A stretch of DNA of 64,000 bases from Desulfovibrio sp. Marseille-P6017 (GTDB taxonomy: Bacteria > Bacillota_A > Clostridia > Peptostreptococcales > Peptostreptococcaceae). Positions 1-25,502 of the stretch are shown here, one piece after another. Position numbers and translations under genes: made by a program. The stretch spans positions 124,001 to 188,000 of the forward strand of contig UWOR01000001.1 in NCBI GenBank assembly GCA_900604495.1, read 5' to 3'. The notes beneath the pieces are model-generated. The model did not search any database. It saw nothing but the letters and a program-made list of their open reading frames with translations, and was not told where the DNA came from. Numbering within the stretch: the stretch's first letter is position 1; every line of letters begins with the position of its first letter.

Positions 1-424
1 TAACTAATATATCTTTCTTATATGAACCTCGAGTAGCTATTGTTTTTAAATCAAATTCCAATTTATTAATTTCTCCAAATGGGGTCTTATTAGTTAATTC
101 AACCAAAACTTTATCTAAATCACTCTTAGAAATATCTTTTGACTTTAATATAAATGATCTGCAGTTATCATATTTAAAATAATTTATAAATTCATCTGAA
201 TTCTCGGTACTATCTATAGCATTTTCAACTTCTTCTAACATATTTGAGTAAATTACTTCTATAGCACTAAGTGAGTCTTCTTTAAGTTTTAAGTTTTTAA
301 TCTCTAAACTTGAAATTTTAATATTACTATATACTAAGCTAGTGCACATGAAACAAATTGTACTCACTAATGAAAATATAATTAATGTTATTATTAAAAC
401 AGATCCATTATTTTTTTGTAACAT
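1..424 (-). CDS. PilX-like prepilin (3' end outside window)
   Basis: The reading frame starts at an ATG at 424 and runs off the window edge, so the C-terminus is missing. The protein begins MLQKNNGSVLIITLIIFSLV: a short charged leader, a Gly before the hydrophobic stretch, and one N-terminal membrane helix (about residues 8-32). This resembles type IV pilin or pseudopilin N-termini of the PilX kind. The rest is hydrophilic with no motif I recognise. It overlaps the preceding prepilin gene by 17 nt, which indicates translational coupling. The likely role is a minor component of a type IV pilus or type II-like assembly at the membrane. The fold is inferred from the N-terminus only, and the Glu+5 typical of major pilins is absent. 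Confidence 0.6.
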   Translation of the reverse strand, partial: MLQKNNGSVLIITLIIFSLVSTICFMCTSLVYSNIKISSLEIKNLKLKEDSLSAIEVIYSNMLEEVENAIDSTENSDEFINYFKYDNCRSFILKSKDISKSDLDKVLVELTNKTPFGEINKLEFDLKTIATRGSYKKDILV

Positions 425-776
425 ATGTACTTACCTCTAAGTTTTTATCTTGATAAGTTACTTTAACATTAAGCTTATAGCATCTATAAATATTTTCATC
501 TTTTTTAATAGTAGACTCTATTTTATATTTTCCAATTTGATTTTGTTCTTGTAACTTATTAATTTCTTTAGCACTTTTTATTATTTCCTTTTTATCATTA
601 ATATAACTTTCCGCTATATTAACCATTTCTATGGTATTTTTATTACTCTCAGCAAACTTATAACTATTTTGCAAAGATATCGCTATAAGGTTTACTATTA
701 ACATCATAACTAATAGACTTATTATACATTCTATCAGTGCAAACCCTTTATTTTCATTTATTATTTTTTTATTAAT
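408..776 (-). CDS. PilV/GspI-like minor prepilin, probable ATT start
   Basis: The frame contains KGFALIECIISLLV, a textbook type III prepilin signal: a basic leader, Gly-Phe at the peptidase site, Glu at +5, then a hydrophobic helix. Frame analysis that accepts only ATG/GTG/TTG would begin inside that helix at 707. The frame stays open upstream to a stop at about 779-781 and offers no ATG, GTG or TTG before the signal. An ATT codon at 774-776 lies about 11 nt after AAAGGA and is the best start, giving about 122 aa. A one-base sequence error hiding a normal start is the alternative. It follows aroE by 28 nt and overlaps the next prepilin gene, so the three look cotranscribed. Confidence 0.65.
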   Translation of the reverse strand: MNKKIINENKGFALIECIISLLVMMLIVNLIAISLQNSYKFAESNKNTIEMVNIAESYINDKKEIIKSAKEINKLQEQNQIGKYKIESTIKKDENIYRCYKLNVKVTYQDKNLEVSTYVTKK

Positions 777-804: not shown

Positions 805-1653
805 TTACTTTATACTATCTAAGTAAATTTCATTTATTTGATTTTTATCTTCTATTGTTGTGTTTATATCTGTCCATATATTAAATGCTTCTAGGCCTTG
901 ATTTATTAGCATGTCTATTCCATAAACAACATTTAGCTTATTTTTCAATGCCCATTTAATAAATGTTGTTTCATGTGGCTTATAGACTATATCACAAACT
1001 AACATTTTTTTATTAACTACAATATCTTGATTTATAGGGCATTCATCATTGCCCATTCCAATAGGTGTTGTATTTATCAATATATCAATATGTTCTAAGT
1101 TATCTTCCATTATAGTATCATTTGATAGAGTCGCTTTTGTATTAAAATTATTATTTATTATATTTATAATTTCTAATGCCTTTTCTTTACTACGATTTCT
1201 TATTTCTATAGATTCTACATCATTTGATGCTAATTCCACAGCAATACTCCTACAAGCACCTCCAGCTCCAATTATCATTATTTTTTTATTTTTTAGATCA
1301 TAGCCCTTATCTAAAATTGATTTTACAAATCCTTTTCCATCAGTATTATATCCCTTTAGTCTACCACCTTCATTTTTTATTGTATTTACCGCCCCTATTA
1401 ATTTAGCATTTATTTCTATCTCATCTAAGTACTTTATAACTTCAACTTTATGAGGTATAGTTATATTACATCCAAGTATATTTAATGCTTTAATTCCTTT
1501 AATAGCATTTTCTATTTCACTAGGAATTACATCATAGCATACATATACATTATTTATTTTGTATTTATCAAATAAATAATTATGTATATTCGGTGAAAAA
1601 CTTTGTTCTACTGGATGGCCTAGTAAGCAAAAAGTTTTAGTTTTTGAATTCAT
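805..1653 (-). CDS. aroE: shikimate dehydrogenase
   Basis: NADPH-dependent reduction of 3-dehydroshikimate to shikimate in aromatic amino acid synthesis, in the cytoplasm. The N-terminal substrate domain has LLGHPVEQSFSP and NITIPHK (the catalytic Lys region), followed by NTDGKGF. The nucleotide-binding domain has the glycine-rich loop IIGAGGACRS, then NTTPIGM. Length (282 aa) is normal. I chose the ATG at 1653 because AGGAG lies about 9 nt upstream; an earlier in-frame ATG at 1677 would place that AGGAG inside the gene. It lies between the sensor-kinase genes and the prepilin genes, all on one strand, and no terminator is evident on either side. Confidence 0.93.
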   Translation of the reverse strand: MNSKTKTFCLLGHPVEQSFSPNIHNYLFDKYKINNVYVCYDVIPSEIENAIKGIKALNILGCNITIPHKVEVIKYLDEIEINAKLIGAVNTIKNEGGRLKGYNTDGKGFVKSILDKGYDLKNKKIMIIGAGGACRSIAVELASNDVESIEIRNRSKEKALEIINIINNNFNTKATLSNDTIMEDNLEHIDILINTTPIGMGNDECPINQDIVVNKKMLVCDIVYKPHETTFIKWALKNKLNVVYGIDMLINQGLEAFNIWTDINTTIEDKNQINEIYLDSIK

Positions 1654-1719
1654 TTCATTATATCTCCTATCTATCATTTATTATCAATTTATCACTAAAT
1701 TATACAATACGTTAATATT

Positions 1720-3681
1720 TTAAAAACTGCACATTTTCTTATATTCTAAATATGCAAATCCATCTTGTTTATAATTATCTCGTGTTTTATAGGCTTTGTC
1801 TTCGTGAACTCTTTTTATATCAATAACTATTTCCATATTACGAGGACCTACTTTTATATTAAGGTTACCTCCATAAAATTCTATAATTAGTCTAGCTAAT
1901 GTAATACTCATTTCAACAATTTTATTTTCACTATTTTTAATATACTTATCATAATCATATTTATCACTATTTTTAATCATGATAGTTATAAAATCTTTTT
2001 TAGTACCTAGTTCAAATACAACGTTACTTTTTTTCATAGAATATTTAATAACAATAGATAATAATATTAATATAACTTTTTCAATATCATCTATATCTAT
2101 GTTTACTATTTTTTCTTCTTCATCTGTATCAAAAACTATATTTACATCTTCCTTATCTATAAATTCACTAAACTCATCTACAATATCTTCTGATATATCA
2201 ACTATATTATAATAGTCTTTTTTAAATTCATGAAAATTAGACTGCAATTTAGCAAGTTCTATCATATTATCTATTAATCCCATAAGTATGTTTACATGTT
2301 TTTTTACAATCTCTATTGTATTTAAGACTTCAATATTGTTATTCTCTTTCAACTCATTTTTATAAACAACCTCAATTAGCTGATTACTTGAATGTATTAA
2401 GTTTAGTGGAGTCTTTAACTCATGAGACATATTTATAAAAAATTCATTTTTAGATTTGTTTAACTTTTCTTTTTCTTCGATTTCCCTTTCTATTAACTCT
2501 GCTTTTATTTGTTCTGTAATATCTCTAACTATACCAATCATTTTTATTTTTTTATTTATATCTAAAAGCATTCCACCACATTCTATATTAATTTCGTTTC
2601 CATGTTGATCATTTAGAGTATCTCTTTTATATTTAACATTACCATTTATACTTCCTGAAGTCATAATCATATTTTTGTTTATGCTATCTATATCTACATT
2701 TGTTATCTCTTTGCTTCCTATCATATTGAAAAATGCTTTATTTGCATACTTAAGCATTTTACTATCAAAATCTAAAACATATATTCCTTCTGGAATTATA
2801 TTTACTAATGATTCATATTTCTTTTTACTTCTCTCCAATTTTTTTAATAAATTTTTATAGCTAGTTATATCTCTAATTACAAATAGTGTTCTGTACTCCT
2901 CACCTTCAATATAATTTACTTTATCTATATTTAAATAAGTATCTATACCATCGCTATACGTATAGTATAATTCTTCACTTGAGCATTGACCTAATATTAT
3001 ATTTTTTATATCTTCTTGATTAAAATCAATATATTCGCTTTTATTATTATTATATATAATCTCATCTTTATTAGCTATAAGAACAGAGTAAGGCATATTA
3101 TCTACTATCTTTTTATACTTAGTATCATTGTCTTTTATTTTCATATCTATTTGTTTTCTAGAAGTTACATCTGTCATTATACAAATAACACCCGTTGAAT
3201 TGTTATTTAGTTTAACTGGTATAGATCTACAAGTAAAAGTCCTACCATTCTTATCTTTAATTTCAGTTTCAATTTCTCTATAGCTACTTCTAGATTTTTC
3301 AATATTATATATAAGTTTATCATCATGAGCAAAACTATTTTTACAAAAAAGTTCTAAACTAATGTTATACTCGTAATTAATATATTCATTCCATATATCA
3401 TAAAAACTACTATCTTCGTTAGTTATATAACCTTCATTATCTATTAAAAACATAGTTTTTTGAGAGCCTTTTAACATTAAATTTAATATATTTTCTTTTT
3501 TTACTATCATTTCACTTGTATTTTTATTAGTAGACTTCTTAATATTTAATTTTTCATCATGAATTTTAATATTTATGTTTGATCTATTTAACTTACTAAT
3601 AATATCTACGCTTTTATCGTAATATAATTTTACATATACTTTAAAAATATACATTAAAATATAAATACTACAAGCTAACAC
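1720..3681 (-). CDS. PAS sensor kinase-like protein with a degenerate ATP-binding domain
   Basis: One membrane helix (about residues 3-20), three PAS-like segments (about 75-175, 185-285 and 288-395) and a HisKA dimerisation segment with an intact H-box, FFINMSHELKTPL. The candidate phospho-accepting His is residue 420 (codon 2422-2424). The following ATPase-like domain (about 470-640) is degenerate. The N-box reads ILILLSIVIKYS, with Ile where the conserved Asn residues should be. The DxGxG G1 box is replaced by KNSDKYD and no GxGxG G2 box is seen. It probably cannot bind ATP but could be phosphorylated. The GTG start has no visible ribosome binding site, and the preceding membrane ORF ends 11 nt upstream. 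The two may be one gene split by a frameshift. Confidence 0.75.
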   Translation of the reverse strand: MLACSIYILMYIFKVYVKLYYDKSVDIISKLNRSNINIKIHDEKLNIKKSTNKNTSEMIVKKENILNLMLKGSQKTMFLIDNEGYITNEDSSFYDIWNEYINYEYNISLELFCKNSFAHDDKLIYNIEKSRSSYREIETEIKDKNGRTFTCRSIPVKLNNNSTGVICIMTDVTSRKQIDMKIKDNDTKYKKIVDNMPYSVLIANKDEIIYNNNKSEYIDFNQEDIKNIILGQCSSEELYYTYSDGIDTYLNIDKVNYIEGEEYRTLFVIRDITSYKNLLKKLERSKKKYESLVNIIPEGIYVLDFDSKMLKYANKAFFNMIGSKEITNVDIDSINKNMIMTSGSINGNVKYKRDTLNDQHGNEINIECGGMLLDINKKIKMIGIVRDITEQIKAELIEREIEEKEKLNKSKNEFFINMSHELKTPLNLIHSSNQLIEVVYKNELKENNNIEVLNTIEIVKKHVNILMGLIDNMIELAKLQSNFHEFKKDYYNIVDISEDIVDEFSEFIDKEDVNIVFDTDEEEKIVNIDIDDIEKVILILLSIVIKYSMKKSNVVFELGTKKDFITIMIKNSDKYDYDKYIKNSENKIVEMSITLARLIIEFYGGNLNIKVGPRNMEIVIDIKRVHEDKAYKTRDNYKQDGFAYLEYKKMCSF

Positions 3682-3692
3682 TAGTATTGAAT

Positions 3693-4178
3693 TTATATTT
3701 CTATTAACATATTTTCTTTTAAAATTAATTCTAAAAATATACCTATAATATACATAAAATGAAGCATGTATTTTATATGAAATTTTTCATTAAATATATA
3801 AATAGAAAATAAATACAAGTTAGTTATTAAGACGTAAATATTTATAACCATACTATATAAATTATCATTTATATAGTATGGTAAAAATAATGATATCAAT
3901 ATCAATGAATAATTTAGAGCTAATACAATGTCCTTCGACTTATTATGTATTTTATAAAGTTCTAAATTTACTAAAAATGTCAGTACTATTAAGTTACTAA
4001 CGCTTCTATAAAATGAAATTTCATTTAAAATATTATACAACTTTAATAAAACTGTACTTAAAAGCATAACTGACTGAAAAATTATATTTTTATATTGACC
4101 TTTCACTAAATTACTGCTCAATATGTATAAACATGTAAGAAAAATTGATACATTAATTATATCTAAATATCTACACAT
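3693..4178 (-). CDS. polytopic membrane protein, probable N-terminal sensor half of a split kinase gene
   Basis: A protein of 161 aa made almost entirely of hydrophobic segments (about six or seven helices), with no soluble domain and no motif of its own. It has AAGGGG before its ATG. In position and character it matches the N-terminal membrane region (about 135 residues) of the 800-residue kinase-like protein just upstream. It stops at 3693, and the next frame opens with another membrane helix. Removing one AT unit from the short AT repeat at about 3693-3699 joins the two frames without a stop, giving MLIEINSILVLAC across the junction. I therefore read it as the membrane module of the downstream kinase, split by a 2-bp change, a sequence error or real decay. 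An independent small membrane protein is the alternative. Confidence 0.55.
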   Translation of the reverse strand: MCRYLDIINVSIFLTCLYILSSNLVKGQYKNIIFQSVMLLSTVLLKLYNILNEISFYRSVSNLIVLTFLVNLELYKIHNKSKDIVLALNYSLILISLFLPYYINDNLYSMVINIYVLITNLYLFSIYIFNEKFHIKYMLHFMYIIGIFLELILKENMLIEI

Positions 4179-4210
4179 CCTATTTCCCCTTCTAGTTTAA
4201 TTAATAATCA

Positions 4211-6601
4211 TCACGAACCCAAATCAAAGTATATATCCGAAAATTCTATATCAATATTTTCTATATCTGTACTTTTATCTATTTTGCCTTTATCTTCATT
4301 TAACTCAATAACTTTATTGTTATCTAATATGACTTCGAATTTACTACCACAACCTACCTTACTATATACATTTATCTTAGCATTGTGCGCTTTTACTAAC
4401 TGCTTAACTAATGCCAATCCTACACCAGTTCCCTCAGCACCTCTAGATAGAGTTGTATCAACTTGTTCAAAGTTCTCAAATATAGTATCGATTTTTTCAC
4501 TTGGTATTCCAACTCCAGTATCTTCTACAGAAATAATTATATTATCCTTATCGGTATTAACTGATACCATTATTTTTCCATTACTGTTTGTAAATTTTAT
4601 TGAATTAGATAATAAATTTAAAATAATTTTTTCTATTTTACTTTTATCTATTAATATTATTTTTTTCTTTATATTAGTTATAAATAATATTTCTAGATTT
4701 TTATACTTTGCGTATTCTCTAGATAGCCTAACTATATTCTCTATAAATTTAACTATATCACATCTACTATAATTCATATCTAAGGTTCCATTTTCAATCT
4801 TACTTATTTCATCTATATTATTTAGTAACCTTTTTAATCTATAAGAATTTTGTCTAACAACTCTAGAGTAATTGTCTATATATTTAAATTCTTTTCTTGA
4901 TTCATTATTTTGCAAAATCTTATTAACTTCGAATATTGTATTAATAGGTTTTTTTAAATTATTACACATTGTGTATAAGAATTCTGTTTTAAATTTATAC
5001 TTATCTTTCATTTCATTTAATTTTTCCTTCATTTGCTCTGCTCTATATTCATCATCAAGCATACTCGCAACACAAACAAGATTATTATCTTCTTTAGAAT
5101 CAGTTATAGCTATAGAAATATCTGCATTTTCATCATTGTCTAGACGAAATCTCTTAAACTTTCCATAGTCGCCATTATCAATATATTCTTTTATAATTTC
5201 ATTAAACTTGTCTGCTCCTACTGACTTTAATATTTTTATCATAGACCTATTTCTATATATGTGTAGTTTGGTCTTTTTATCTATTATTACTATACCTTCT
5301 GGAAGAGCTTGCAAAAGCAATTTATATGTTTTTTCACTTTCTTCTAATTGATTTTTAACTTCTTCTAATCCTGTAATATCTACAGCTATACTTAACATCA
5401 TATTTGTATTATTTAAAGTTATATGTGTTGTTATAAACTCAATAATTTTTCCATACTCAGTTTCTATTTTGCAAACTGATTTTTCTTCTTTCCCACACTT
5501 TACTAAGTTTATATTTTGTAAAAATTCTTTTCTATGTTTTTTAATTATATTATTTTTTATATCATCTATTAGAAGCACTTTATCCATATTTTTATTTATA
5601 TTAAATAATTCTAATGCCTTATCATTTAAATAATTAATAGTGTCTATACTATGAATTATTACACCATCATTAATTATATCCATGAGCTTCCTATATTTCG
5701 TTTCACTTTCTTTTAATTCATTTTTTATATTTATATCTTTGGTTATATCTTCTAATAAGCATATTTTTAATTCTCTATCATTTATAATGTCTAAATTACA
5801 AGTAAATTTAAAAATTTTGTTATCGTAGGTTTTAAGTTTTACTATATTATTAATCTCATGATTAGCAAAATTTATATTGTTTAACATATCATCGAAATTA
5901 ATTAACTTTTCTTTAAAGCTTATTAATACATTTTCTTTTTTTAGTTTAATATCTTCTTCTTTTAAAAACTTTTCAAATTCTTTATTTCCATATATATAGT
6001 CTAATTCACTATTCAATACAAATATAGGTATATTCAAAGCTTCAATTGTACTTTCTATTTTACAGTTTAATGTCATTACTTTTTCGTTGAGATCCTGTTT
6101 TAGATTAGATTCTGATTCTATTTCCTTGATTGACTTCGATATGTATTTTTTATTAAGCTTTAGTTTATGTTTATTTTTGCTTACACTTATCCTTAGTTTT
6201 TTTATATTGTTTATTACTCCTAAATGTATTAATAATAAATTTGATATAATACTGATTATTAAACTTAATTCATAACTAGCACTTAATGATATTATAGAAA
6301 ATAAATATCCTATAGCTATAATAAAATTTAAGTATAATTTAAAATTTATCTTCTTATAAAATAATATAATCATCAATATTTTTATTATAAAAATAGCAGC
6401 AATTATGTACAATTTACTTTTATTTATAGACTGCATGCCTATATAGATATTTACACATACTTCTACACAGTAAATTAAAGATACTATCATAAATATTATA
6501 CTTTTATTCAAAAAACATCTTCCTATAGATAGAGTGGCAATAGAAATTAATATTATAGTATTTAATAAACTTAGTACCTCTCTATATTCATATAAGTTCA
6601 T
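4211..6601 (-). CDS. PAS sensor kinase-like protein with intact ATPase but no H-box histidine
   Basis: N-terminal region of about six membrane helices (to about residue 135), a basic linker, three PAS-like segments (about 185-290, 305-415 and 425-525), a HisKA-like helical segment and a C-terminal HATPase domain. The ATPase domain is complete: N-box NLLSNSIKFT, G1 DTGVGI, F-box FENFEQVD, G2 GTGVGLAL. The H-box reads FLYTMCNNLKKPI where SHELKTP is normal, so Asn (codon 4961-4963) replaces the phosphorylated His. It cannot autophosphorylate in the usual way. I chose the ATG at 6601, about 8 nt after AAGGTGG; upstream GTG (6613) and ATG (6607) codons sit too close to that site. It follows sigK and leads a group with the membrane ORF and the complementary kinase-like gene. 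Confidence 0.8.
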   Translation of the reverse strand: MNLYEYREVLSLLNTIILISIATLSIGRCFLNKSIIFMIVSLIYCVEVCVNIYIGMQSINKSKLYIIAAIFIIKILMIILFYKKINFKLYLNFIIAIGYLFSIISLSASYELSLIISIISNLLLIHLGVINNIKKLRISVSKNKHKLKLNKKYISKSIKEIESESNLKQDLNEKVMTLNCKIESTIEALNIPIFVLNSELDYIYGNKEFEKFLKEEDIKLKKENVLISFKEKLINFDDMLNNINFANHEINNIVKLKTYDNKIFKFTCNLDIINDRELKICLLEDITKDINIKNELKESETKYRKLMDIINDGVIIHSIDTINYLNDKALELFNINKNMDKVLLIDDIKNNIIKKHRKEFLQNINLVKCGKEEKSVCKIETEYGKIIEFITTHITLNNTNMMLSIAVDITGLEEVKNQLEESEKTYKLLLQALPEGIVIIDKKTKLHIYRNRSMIKILKSVGADKFNEIIKEYIDNGDYGKFKRFRLDNDENADISIAITDSKEDNNLVCVASMLDDEYRAEQMKEKLNEMKDKYKFKTEFLYTMCNNLKKPINTIFEVNKILQNNESRKEFKYIDNYSRVVRQNSYRLKRLLNNIDEISKIENGTLDMNYSRCDIVKFIENIVRLSREYAKYKNLEILFITNIKKKIILIDKSKIEKIILNLLSNSIKFTNSNGKIMVSVNTDKDNIIISVEDTGVGIPSEKIDTIFENFEQVDTTLSRGAEGTGVGLALVKQLVKAHNAKINVYSKVGCGSKFEVILDNNKVIELNEDKGKIDKSTDIENIDIEFSDIYFDLGS

Positions 6602-6771
6602 CCTCATTCCCACCTTATAAAATTTAAGTATTATTTTTTAGTTTTATTTCATATAATAAGTAAAAAAAAATAAATATTGTTATATATTTTTTAAAACTCA
6701 ATATTTATAAATATATATGTAATATTAGCACAATGATTTCAAATAATTTGTCAATTCTTGATTTAAAGCAA

Positions 6772-6797
6772 AAAAAAGCCTTATTAAAGGCTTTTTT
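6772..6797 (-). terminator. sigK terminator
   Basis: Inverted repeat AAAAAAGCC(TT)/GGCTTTTTT. It begins inside the last codons of sigK and ends in a T run on the minus strand. It should separate sigK from the kinase-like genes downstream. Confidence 0.8.
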
Positions 6798-7431
6798 CTG
6801 TTTTAAGTTCTTTTCTAAGTTTTTTTAATGCTCTTTTTTCTATTCTAGAAACATAAGACCTAGATATTTCAAGTTTCTGAGCAATTTCTCTTTGCGTCTT
6901 ATAACCCGATGTCGTTAAACCATATCTTAACTTGATTATTTCTTTTTCTCGATCAGTTAAAATTTTTTCTAGATTTTCATAAAGTTTACTTATTTCAACC
7001 TTTAGTTCAACTTGATCTACAACATAATCGATATCTGTTCCAAGAACATCAATTAAACTAATTTCATTACCTTCTTTATCCATTCCAATTGGATCTTGAA
7101 GTGATACTTGAAACTTATTCTTCTTATTAGTTCTAATATTCATAAGAATTTCATTTTCAATACATTTAGATGCATATGTTGCTAATCTAGTGCCTTTTTC
7201 TACATTATATGTTTCTATAGCTTTTATCAGTCCTATTGTTCCTATAGAAATAAGATCATCTTGATCTTCTGTAGAGTTGTTATATTTCTTAGCTATATGA
7301 GCTACTAATCTCATGTTCCTTTCAATTAATACTTCCTTAGCTGACTCGTCATTTTCTAGCTTAAACCTAGTTAAATAGTATACTTCTTCTTCAGGGGTTA
7401 ATGGTTTTTCAAATGATTTGAGAATAGTCAA
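6784..7431 (-). CDS. sigK: RNA polymerase sigma-K factor, late mother-cell sporulation
   Basis: A sigma-70 family protein of 215 aa. Region 2 contains LIERNMRLVAHIAKKY, QDDLISIGTIGLIKAI and TRLATYASKCIENEI. Region 4 contains LTDREKEIIKLRYGL and a helix-turn-helix at REIAQKLEISRSYVSRIEKRA. SigK drives late mother-cell genes for coat and lysis. Two features match the C. difficile type. The protein starts directly at MTILKSFEKPLT with no membrane-bound pro-sequence of the Bacillus kind. The gene is continuous here, with no skin-type element inside. The start is TTG at 7431, just after GGGGGGAGG. The stop codon lies within the terminator hairpin. It sits downstream of a class B PBP gene. Confidence 0.92.
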   Translation of the reverse strand: MTILKSFEKPLTPEEEVYYLTRFKLENDESAKEVLIERNMRLVAHIAKKYNNSTEDQDDLISIGTIGLIKAIETYNVEKGTRLATYASKCIENEILMNIRTNKKNKFQVSLQDPIGMDKEGNEISLIDVLGTDIDYVVDQVELKVEISKLYENLEKILTDREKEIIKLRYGLTTSGYKTQREIAQKLEISRSYVSRIEKRALKKLRKELKTEKSL

Positions 7432-24593: not shown

Positions 24594-25406
24594 TTATTTT
24601 ACCATACTATGTTCTAATCTTAATTTATCAGCAATCATAGCTATAAATTCTGAGTTTGTTGGTTTTCCTTTTGTATTATGTACAGTATAACCAAATAATT
24701 GATTTATTGTGTCTACCTTACCTCTGCTCCATGCAACTTCTATTGCATGTCTTATAGCTCTTTCTACTCTACTTGGTGTAGTATTAAACTTCTTAGCTAT
24801 ACTTGGGTATAATTCTTTTGTTACTGCTCCTAAAAGTTCAACATTGTCTATTACCATTTTTATAGCTTCTCTTAAATATAAATATCCTTTTATATGAGCT
24901 GGTACACCTATTTCATGTATTATATTAGTTATCTCTGTTTCTATGTTCCCAGAATTTTTAACAAAATCACTTCTAGTCATTTGTATATCGCTATTAACTC
25001 TAGATTTAGGCTCTATATGAGCAGTCTTATTAGATACTAACTCTCTTATTCTATTTATAAATATTACAAAGTCAAAAGGTTTTACTATATAGTAATCAGC
25101 ACCTAAATTTATAGCACTTTGAGTTATCTTATCTTGACCAACTGCAGATAGAACTATTATTTTTGGCATTTTTGGTATGTCCATTGCATTTAATTTTTCT
25201 ATAACTCCTAATCCATCTAAATGTGGCATTATTACATCTAGTACTAATAAATCTGGTTGTGTTCTCTTAACTAAGTCTAATGCTTCAATTCCATCCTTAG
25301 CAATCCCTAAGATTTCTATATCATCTTCATTTGATAGATATTCCTTTAAAACTTGACAAAAGTCTTTATTATCATCAGCTAAAACTATTTTTATTTTTTC
25401 GTTCAC
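24594..25406 (-). CDS. spo0A: sporulation master response regulator Spo0A
   Basis: Receiver domain (about residues 1-125): acidic pair VLADDNK, phosphorylated Asp in [13 protein letters not shown], signalling residues [10 protein letters not shown], and Lys in YIVKPFD. A linker leads to the Spo0A-specific DNA-binding domain, whose recognition helix is in [18 protein letters not shown]. Controls entry into sporulation by binding 0A boxes. I chose the GTG at 25406, with GGGGGG 7 nt upstream; the upstream ATG at 25421 is fused to that site. It has its own SigH-type promoter and terminator, and lies downstream of spoIVB, as is common in sporeformers. Confidence 0.96.
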
Positions 25407-25472
25407 TAAAATTCCCCCCATTAATAAAACATTCTCTTTTACCTACAGAAAATCTATTTTTATTCTAAAATA

Positions 25473-25502
25473 TAATTCGACATAGTAAAATTATAATCCT
25501 TC
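25473..25502 (-). promoter_or_regulatory. SigH-type promoter of spo0A
   Basis: On the minus strand GAAGGATTA, a match to the SigH -35 RNAGGAWWW, lies 12 nt before GTCGAATTA, a full match to the SigH -10 RNNGAATWW. It sits about 67 nt before the spo0A GTG. Confidence 0.8.
25476..25482 (-). promoter_or_regulatory. 0A box overlapping the spo0A -10 element
   Basis: TGTCGAA on the minus strand equals the 0A-box consensus and shares bases with the SigH -10. Bound Spo0A would compete with polymerase, suggesting autorepression. The overlap of motifs means it could be coincidence. Confidence 0.5.

Follow-up and report, generated by a model that had tools for sequence, protein, structure and literature searches.

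We analysed a 64,000-nucleotide stretch of the genome deposited as Desulfovibrio sp. Marseille-P6017, which GTDB places in the Peptostreptococcaceae (NCBI GenBank assembly GCA_900604495.1, contig UWOR01000001.1, positions 124,001 to 188,000 of the forward strand); this whole stretch is referred to below as the window. Two neighbouring genes on its minus strand encode sensor kinases of the same layout, K2 (4211..6601) and K1 (1720..4178), each with a membrane part, three PAS-like modules, a dimerization and histidine phosphotransfer (DHp) domain and a catalytic and ATP-binding (CA) domain. We observe a reciprocal loss of motifs between the two, which is confirmed across their orthologues: K2 has an intact HATPase_c domain and a DHp domain without the acceptor His, and K1 has the acceptor His and a degenerate CA domain. 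An original prediction, made from the letters alone, had noticed these complementary defects and had suggested a heterodimer that possibly feeds Spo0A.

With respect to K2, the open reading frame (ORF) at 4211-6613 opens with GTG, and the likely start is the ATG at 6601, which gives a protein of 796 amino acids, the length of homologue P0001. The HATPase_c match scores 93 bits against a cut-off of 26.4 (Pfam PF02518), with the N, G1, F and G2 boxes of the CA domain (4322..4768, minus strand) intact, and HATPase_c is matched in 20 of 20 members of K2 set A1. The HisKA match reaches 19.3 bits, under the cut-off of 26.9 (Pfam PF00512), and the acceptor position is occupied by Asn (codon 4963-4961, at 4961..4963 on the minus strand). 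This bears out the earlier reading of the gene as one with ATP boxes and Asn at the acceptor site, and K2 would be the ATP-binding, catalytic subunit. Its C-terminal tail contains EFSDIYF (4226..4246, minus strand); the tail EFSDIY is common to K2 and many ordinary clostridial kinases, and K1 has instead a conserved Cys-containing tail. Membership in NCBIfam NF047874 (MASE3_PAS_HK) was rejected for both proteins, with 350.8 bits for K2 and 212 bits for the 653-residue ORF of K1 against a cut-off of 560.

K1 shows the converse pattern. The ORF at 1720-3681, predicted to have an H-box and no usable N, G1 or G2 box, scores 36 bits against HisKA (cut-off 26.9), with the acceptor His codon at 2422..2424 (minus strand) within FFINMSHELKTPLN, as part of an HExxT motif, and the boxes are absent as predicted. 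No HATPase_c match was listed for this ORF at E<=10, where the program's filters discard most matches above about 0.1. HisKA is matched at E<=1 in 31 of 31 members of K1 set A2, 14 of which also show weak HATPase_c matches (best E 0.0011). The pseudo-CA domain (1813..2217, minus strand) keeps its fold in the AlphaFold model. Its four boxes (N, G1, F, G2) are gone, and a 13-column alignment gap stands in place of G1 and the beginning of the ATP lid. Upstream of the DHp helices, the AlphaFold models contain three PAS-like units in K1 and K2 alike, in agreement with the segments first read from the sequence, and Pfam backs part of them; the confidence of the K2 model is low in the PAS3-DHp region.

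From start to stop, K1 in the window spans 2459 bases, which is not a multiple of three, and is read in two frames (3693-4178 and 1720-3681). The proposed joining of the 161-residue membrane ORF at 3693-4178 to K1 proved right, since 160 of its 161 residues open the 819-residue protein P0121, whose C-terminal part comprises all 653 residues of the ORF at 1720-3681. P0121 and P0122 are intact copies, and K1 is in frame as a rule among the 30 genomes checked. The break lies near the membrane/PAS border in the window (3681-3693) and also in G009 (locus L009) and G023 (L078), and a further break is found in G004 (L053). An assembly artefact as the cause of the missing motifs was ruled out by in-frame orthologues with the same motif loss.

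To follow this split across relatives, we searched a database of 5.8 billion proteins, which yielded full-length relatives of both, and tallied motifs in the window protein plus the best 120 of 428 matches (K2) or the best 120 of 366 matches (K1); the window is also present among these as P0001 and P0121. Many of the resulting rows are near-copies, with 31 K2 and 49 K1 rows left at 85% identity. The acceptor His is present in 121 of 121 listed K1 rows and in none of the 121 listed K2 rows, where the position is held by Tyr (54), Asn (38), Glu (13), Lys (11), Arg (2), Thr, Ala or Ile (1 each), and the N, G1, F and G2 boxes are kept in the listed K2 rows. Genomes of the Peptostreptococcaceae give the same result: the acceptor His occurs in 31/31 K1 and 0/29 K2, the N, G1 and G2 boxes are kept in 29/29 K2, and the ATP boxes are absent from all 30 K1 with a readable CA domain (that of G004, in another frame, was left out). 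The pattern extends to lineages whose K2 shares no more than about 31-32% identity with that of the window (L104-L107). It holds for all orthologues with motifs that were read, which indicates that it goes beyond chance. The outcomes named as refuting in the original prediction were looked for and not seen. No orthologue keeping both motif sets was found in the 31 K1 genomes (G004 CA unread) or the 29 K2 genomes, and the intact copy P0121 lacks the same motifs as the K1 of the window.

The family search covered 71 genomes, with at most 14 candidates scored per genome, and recovered K2 at E<=1e-130 in 29 of them, every one with K1. The two genes are adjacent in 28 of these 29, and the remaining genome (G025) has a K1 fragment at the extreme end of another contig. 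K1 sits at a contig end and K2 is missing in G034 and G069, where sigK is also close to a contig end. We observe conserved flanks as well, with sigK directly before K2 in 28/29 K2 loci and aroE after K1 in 26/30 K1 loci; at L052 and L077 the contig ends first, and no aroE was found within 1500 bases of K1 at L076 (G026) and L078 (G023). Genomes lacking the pair have sigK and then aroE directly (L115, L116), the two genes side by side in opposed orientation (L113, L119), or other sigK neighbours (L110-L112, L114, L120, L121). K1 and K2 thus seem to be gained and lost together. A search of 393 genomes of the order, with two candidates scored in each, gave K1-profile matches at E<=1e-75 in 44 genomes, all of them already in the family set, and some of these matches are PtpB-like paralogues rather than K1.

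The window itself has the same arrangement, with sigK upstream (6784..7431, minus strand; TIGR02846, 316 bits), a terminator-like hairpin between sigK and the pair (6772..6797, called on the plus strand, the stem-loop being near symmetric) and aroE downstream (805..1677, minus strand; TIGR00507). Beyond aroE lie two small membrane-anchored ORFs of prepilin-type appearance (window 2-707), and relatives of one or both occur in 9 of the 14 neighbourhood loci listed. The sigK match ends near codon 125-137 in L120 and L121 and in G016, G018, G019 and G021. A 510-512-residue ORF lies nearby on the opposite strand in L120 and L121, which we take to resemble a serine recombinase in an arrangement like that of the skin element.

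Across nine close genome pairs, which are partly non-independent, the ratio of nonsynonymous to synonymous substitution rates (dN/dS) was 0.0-0.33 in 52 of 54 domain values, two not being computable because of N bases. Values were 0.03-0.23 for the K1 pseudo-CA and 0.0-0.27 for the K2 DHp domain, and K1 and K2 are under purifying selection, the "dead" halves included. We further compared 42 K1/K2 pairs (15 database pairs and 27 genomes, with G004 dropped; effective number about 30). Of the database pairs, 14 were put together by equal length of the longest contig and one by its identity to the window. K1 is invariant in alpha1 at H, E(+1), L(+2), T(+4), P(+5), N(+7) and Q(+14), and K2 is variable at most of these sites, but P(+5) and N(+13) are invariant there, as are N(+38), R(+41) and N(+48) in its alpha2. 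The HE/DxxN/T phosphatase motif is present on K1, the acceptor protein, where it reads HELKT or HELLT, with H, E and T(+4) at a fraction of 1.00 in the 42 rows and Ser at +4 in one of the 121 listed rows. The linker lengths of K1 and of K2 are constant in all 42 pairs.

Offsets +7, +11 and +12 are among the usual specificity positions of kinase alpha1 helices. In the Clostridioides-like genome G015, the PtpA-, PtpB- and PtpC-like proteins have Asn, Ser and Ser there, as does K1. In alpha2, K2 has the motif QN.YRL or a close variant of it, as do PtpA/PtpB-like kinases and other clostridial kinases; K1 does not. In naming these proteins PtpA-, PtpB- and PtpC-like, we also relied on what we take to be their chromosome positions. 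Their lengths of 915-916, 912 and 618 amino acids are within one residue of the published 915, 912 and 618 (PMC11210211; this and the other papers cited are drawn on in excerpt).

Upstream of K2 we observe a conserved element, YGACAAA followed by GCTA. Of 30 pair loci, 19 have the strict form of the pattern, always with a 16-base spacer from GACAAA to [TG]GCTA; none of four no-pair loci has it. The promoter-like element of the window, TTGACAAA ... TGCTAATAT (6722..6754, minus strand; GACAAA-N16-TGnTAnnAT), ends 121 bases before the K2 ATG. A looser pattern, GACAAA-N15-17-TGnTAnnAT, has one match in the 64-kb window against 0.11 expected, and 43 matches in five genomes against 7 for a reversed control; it stands upstream of K2 in 5/5 genomes and of a spoIIE gene in 5/5, where spoIIE was identified by NCBIfam in two genomes (308-311 bits over partial sequence, with a full-length cut-off of 490.8) and by sequence likeness in the other three. 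A generic promoter scan returned 67 sites against 67.1 in shuffles, so that the promoter claim relies on conservation across genomes and not on that scan.

The spacing from TTGACA to TAATAT is 21 bases, which is too long for an ordinary -35 element and typical of Spo0A-activated promoters. The DNA-binding domain of Clostridioides difficile Spo0A bound the spoIIE upstream region with low affinity in vitro, and the Spo0A core box is TGTCGAA (PMC3485338). Perfect TGTCGAA boxes number two in the window against 1.26 expected, so that the box alone is a weak indicator; a perfect box at 25476-25482 lies just upstream of spo0A (24594..25421, minus strand; TIGR02875, 415.6 bits), the candidate target of the pair, as would fit autoregulation. 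The K2 promoter has the layout of the spoIIE promoter of the same genomes, and we infer that Spo0A drives transcription of K2-K1. The link to sporulation that had been drawn from the surroundings is strengthened by sigK synteny, by the spoIIE-like promoter layout, by the DHp residues shared with PtpA/PtpB/PtpC-like kinases and by the presence of spo0A in the window.

The nearest relatives found by sequence, and perhaps also in logic, are PtpA and PtpB of C. difficile, which have a similar membrane-PAS-HisKA-HATPase layout. These have been suggested to cooperate as hetero-oligomers in which one His is dispensable (PMC11210211). PtpB-like kinases have the EFSDIY tail seen in K2 and the alpha1 residues seen in K1. 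The PtpA-/PtpB-like proteins compared keep their boxes (except at L143), whereas K1 and K2 are split by sequence, and those of Clostridioides-like genomes, with 912-916 amino acids, are encoded in separate places, whereas K1 and K2 lie beside sigK. A PtpB-like kinase was found in 10 of 19 genomes searched (E<=1e-90), and PtpA/PtpB-like kinases occur together with the pair in G001, G006 and G058. Tandem kinases of 900-940 amino acids are present in G001, G006, G014 and G058, the first PtpB-like with the tail EFSDIYY and the second with another tail (L124-L126, L130-L133, L135-L137, L143), and a tandem PtpB/PtpA-like pair is a possible ancestor of the split pair. In the PtpB-like kinase at L143 (G058), Asn replaces the G1-box Asp (NTGIGI), which may represent the beginning of a comparable division of labour.

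We consider it probable that K1 and K2 make up a split HisKA-type sensor kinase: K2 would phosphorylate K1, which in turn would transfer phosphate to Spo0A or take it off. K2 would be the ATP-binding catalytic subunit without an acceptor His, and K1, without ATP-binding residues, would contribute the acceptor His together with an HExxT motif of the phosphatase type. The two would most likely pair through parallel PAS, coiled-coil and DHp regions, and within this heterodimer the CA domain of K2 would phosphorylate the His of K1, so that signal flow would need agreement of both membrane-PAS inputs. Phosphorylated K1 would hand its phosphate on, most likely to Spo0A, and K1 that is not in contact with active K2 may act as a phosphatase of Spo0A~P; the spoIIE-like promoter layout suggests feedback of Spo0A~P on the pair, which would thereby be under Spo0A control. 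A wider reading, which we advance tentatively and hold to be somewhat short of an even chance, is that the Peptostreptococcaceae possess a natural obligate HisKA heterodimer, reciprocally split, with two inputs, autoregulated by Spo0A and possibly acting as a bistable sporulation switch, that is, a membrane-sensor case of the split bifunctional kinases predicted by theory.

Several observations weigh against the split-kinase reading. No response regulator gene lies beside the pair, whose neighbours are sigK and aroE. The Asn/Ser/Ser combination of K1 also occurs in one of seven other clostridial kinases compared, and the divergent K1 of G023 and G026 have Leu/Lys at +11/+12. The strict promoter pattern is absent from 11 of 30 pair loci. 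K1, K2, the PtpA-like and the PtpB-like kinases each form one clade in trees of PAS3-DHp-CA and of all residues before CA, and three deep groupings were not rejected, with approximately unbiased test P values of 0.16 for K1+K2, 0.124 for K1+PtpB-like and 0.0588 for K2+PtpB-like; a K1+PtpA-like grouping received a support value of 34. The K1 frame is broken in the window and, at differing places, in three of 30 genomes checked (G004, G009, G023); these breaks may reflect loss in some lineages or sequencing errors, with regulation as a third option. They also fit a view in which both kinases are duplicates drifting toward loss and complementary by chance. This we regard as very improbable, given that all orthologues read, throughout the family, show this complementary loss, and given the low dN/dS of the 52 domain values and the conserved promoter; random decay was rejected on dN/dS.

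Coevolution gave no clear signal in favour of the split kinase: in the 42 pairs the mutual information between the DHp domains of K1 and K2 did not stand out clearly from that of slid registers, 21 of 200 of which were as high, and the top covarying pairs are a mix of intra- and intermolecular ones. Such a lack of an interface signal would suit two homodimers, with K1 phosphorylated by a K2 homodimer or by another kinase, for example one of the PtpB-like kinases found in 10 of the 19 genomes. Eight of the nine genomes without a PtpB-like kinase carry the pair, which indicates that this kinase is not required, and the equal linker lengths fit, without proving, a parallel heterodimer, so that we hold separate homodimers to be improbable. 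The +4 Thr of K1, present in all paired rows, is also what would be seen if the pair mainly stripped phosphate from Spo0A, with K1 as the HExxT face and K2 as an ATP/ADP-sensing regulator. This would resemble PtpA and PtpB, which are similar in architecture, coexist as relatives with the pair in three genomes, and may, as has been suggested, repress sporulation only when assembled into hetero-oligomers, acting in one pathway with the PtpB His dispensable and the PtpA His needed (PMC11210211). We nevertheless think a mainly dephosphorylating complex unlikely, as the N, G1 and G2 boxes kept in all 29 K2 go beyond the seeming needs of a pure regulator, and a phosphatase face alone does not explain the invariant His and Glu of K1.

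If the split-kinase reading is true, K1 and K2 probably act together as a single enzyme with a part in the timing of spore formation, and neither protein alone should autophosphorylate. The concept of the split bifunctional kinase places the acceptor and the ATP-binding residues on two proteins (PMC3591291), and by their motifs K1 and K2 appear to be of this kind. The same source estimates that up to 1.7% of histidine kinases could be split and bifunctional, finds in its models that ultrasensitive or bistable signalling can arise from such a kinase, and takes a CheA as its test case. It also counts 711 HisKA proteins in SMART without HATPase and with HE/DxxN/T; K1 is a protein of the same kind, with its partner gene next door. 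The K1/K2 locus offers a conserved HisKA pair whose partner is known and adjacent and whose surroundings tie it to an all-or-none decision.

CheA3 and CheA4 of Rhodobacter sphaeroides, named as a precedent in the original prediction, hold as a functional analogy and differ in architecture. ATP binding and acceptor are on two proteins there as well, and the acceptor subunit doubles as phosphatase (PMC3591291), but the CheA pair has whole domains missing from a P1/P3/P4/P5 plan, belongs to a chemotaxis cluster and has no membrane-PAS input, whereas K1 and K2 have the HisKA/PAS/HATPase_c plan. The nearest tested heterodimer is FasB/FasC of group A Streptococcus, which belong to another kinase class and are likewise two kinase-like proteins from one locus. 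They formed a heterodimer without homodimers in two-hybrid assays, with the FasC CA domain dispensable and the FasC His needed (PMC12675982). In contrast to K1 and K2, they have six predicted transmembrane domains with no PAS domain named in the excerpt, candidate His residues persist in the DHp domain of FasB (PMC12675982), and the response regulator FasA is encoded in the same locus, whereas none adjoins K1/K2; the reciprocal loss of acceptor and ATP site is on the side of K1/K2.

Other pairs are more distant. RetS inhibits GacS in Pseudomonas aeruginosa, and both also homodimerise (PMC12675982); this pair is no complementary split. The ChrS pseudokinase of Corynebacterium glutamicum lost its CA function by frameshift in laboratory evolution and forms two-hybrid heterodimers with the paralogous kinase HrrS (PMC9491836); this case is laboratory-evolved and the partner keeps all functions, whereas K1/K2 is a conserved natural pair. 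Hik36/Hik43 of Synechocystis have been termed a split histidine kinase in print (PMC7656254), but are a CheA homologue split into histidine phosphotransfer (HPt) and CA proteins with genes far apart, unlike the adjacent HisKA genes here. A hybrid kinase of Caulobacter lacks the conserved His, and a heterodimer is among the options suggested for it (PMC11481889). We found no precedent in the open-licence PMC literature for a HisKA-type pair split by reciprocal loss. Split kinases are thus already known from CheA and partly from FasB/FasC, and K1/K2 differs as a HisKA pair that is split reciprocally. Where Spo0A of C. difficile mainly gets its phosphate has been called unsolved, with PtpA/PtpB hetero-oligomers suggested (PMC11210211), and K1/K2 would, if our reading is true, be a PtpA/PtpB-like arrangement whose division of labour is written into the sequence and is hence directly testable.

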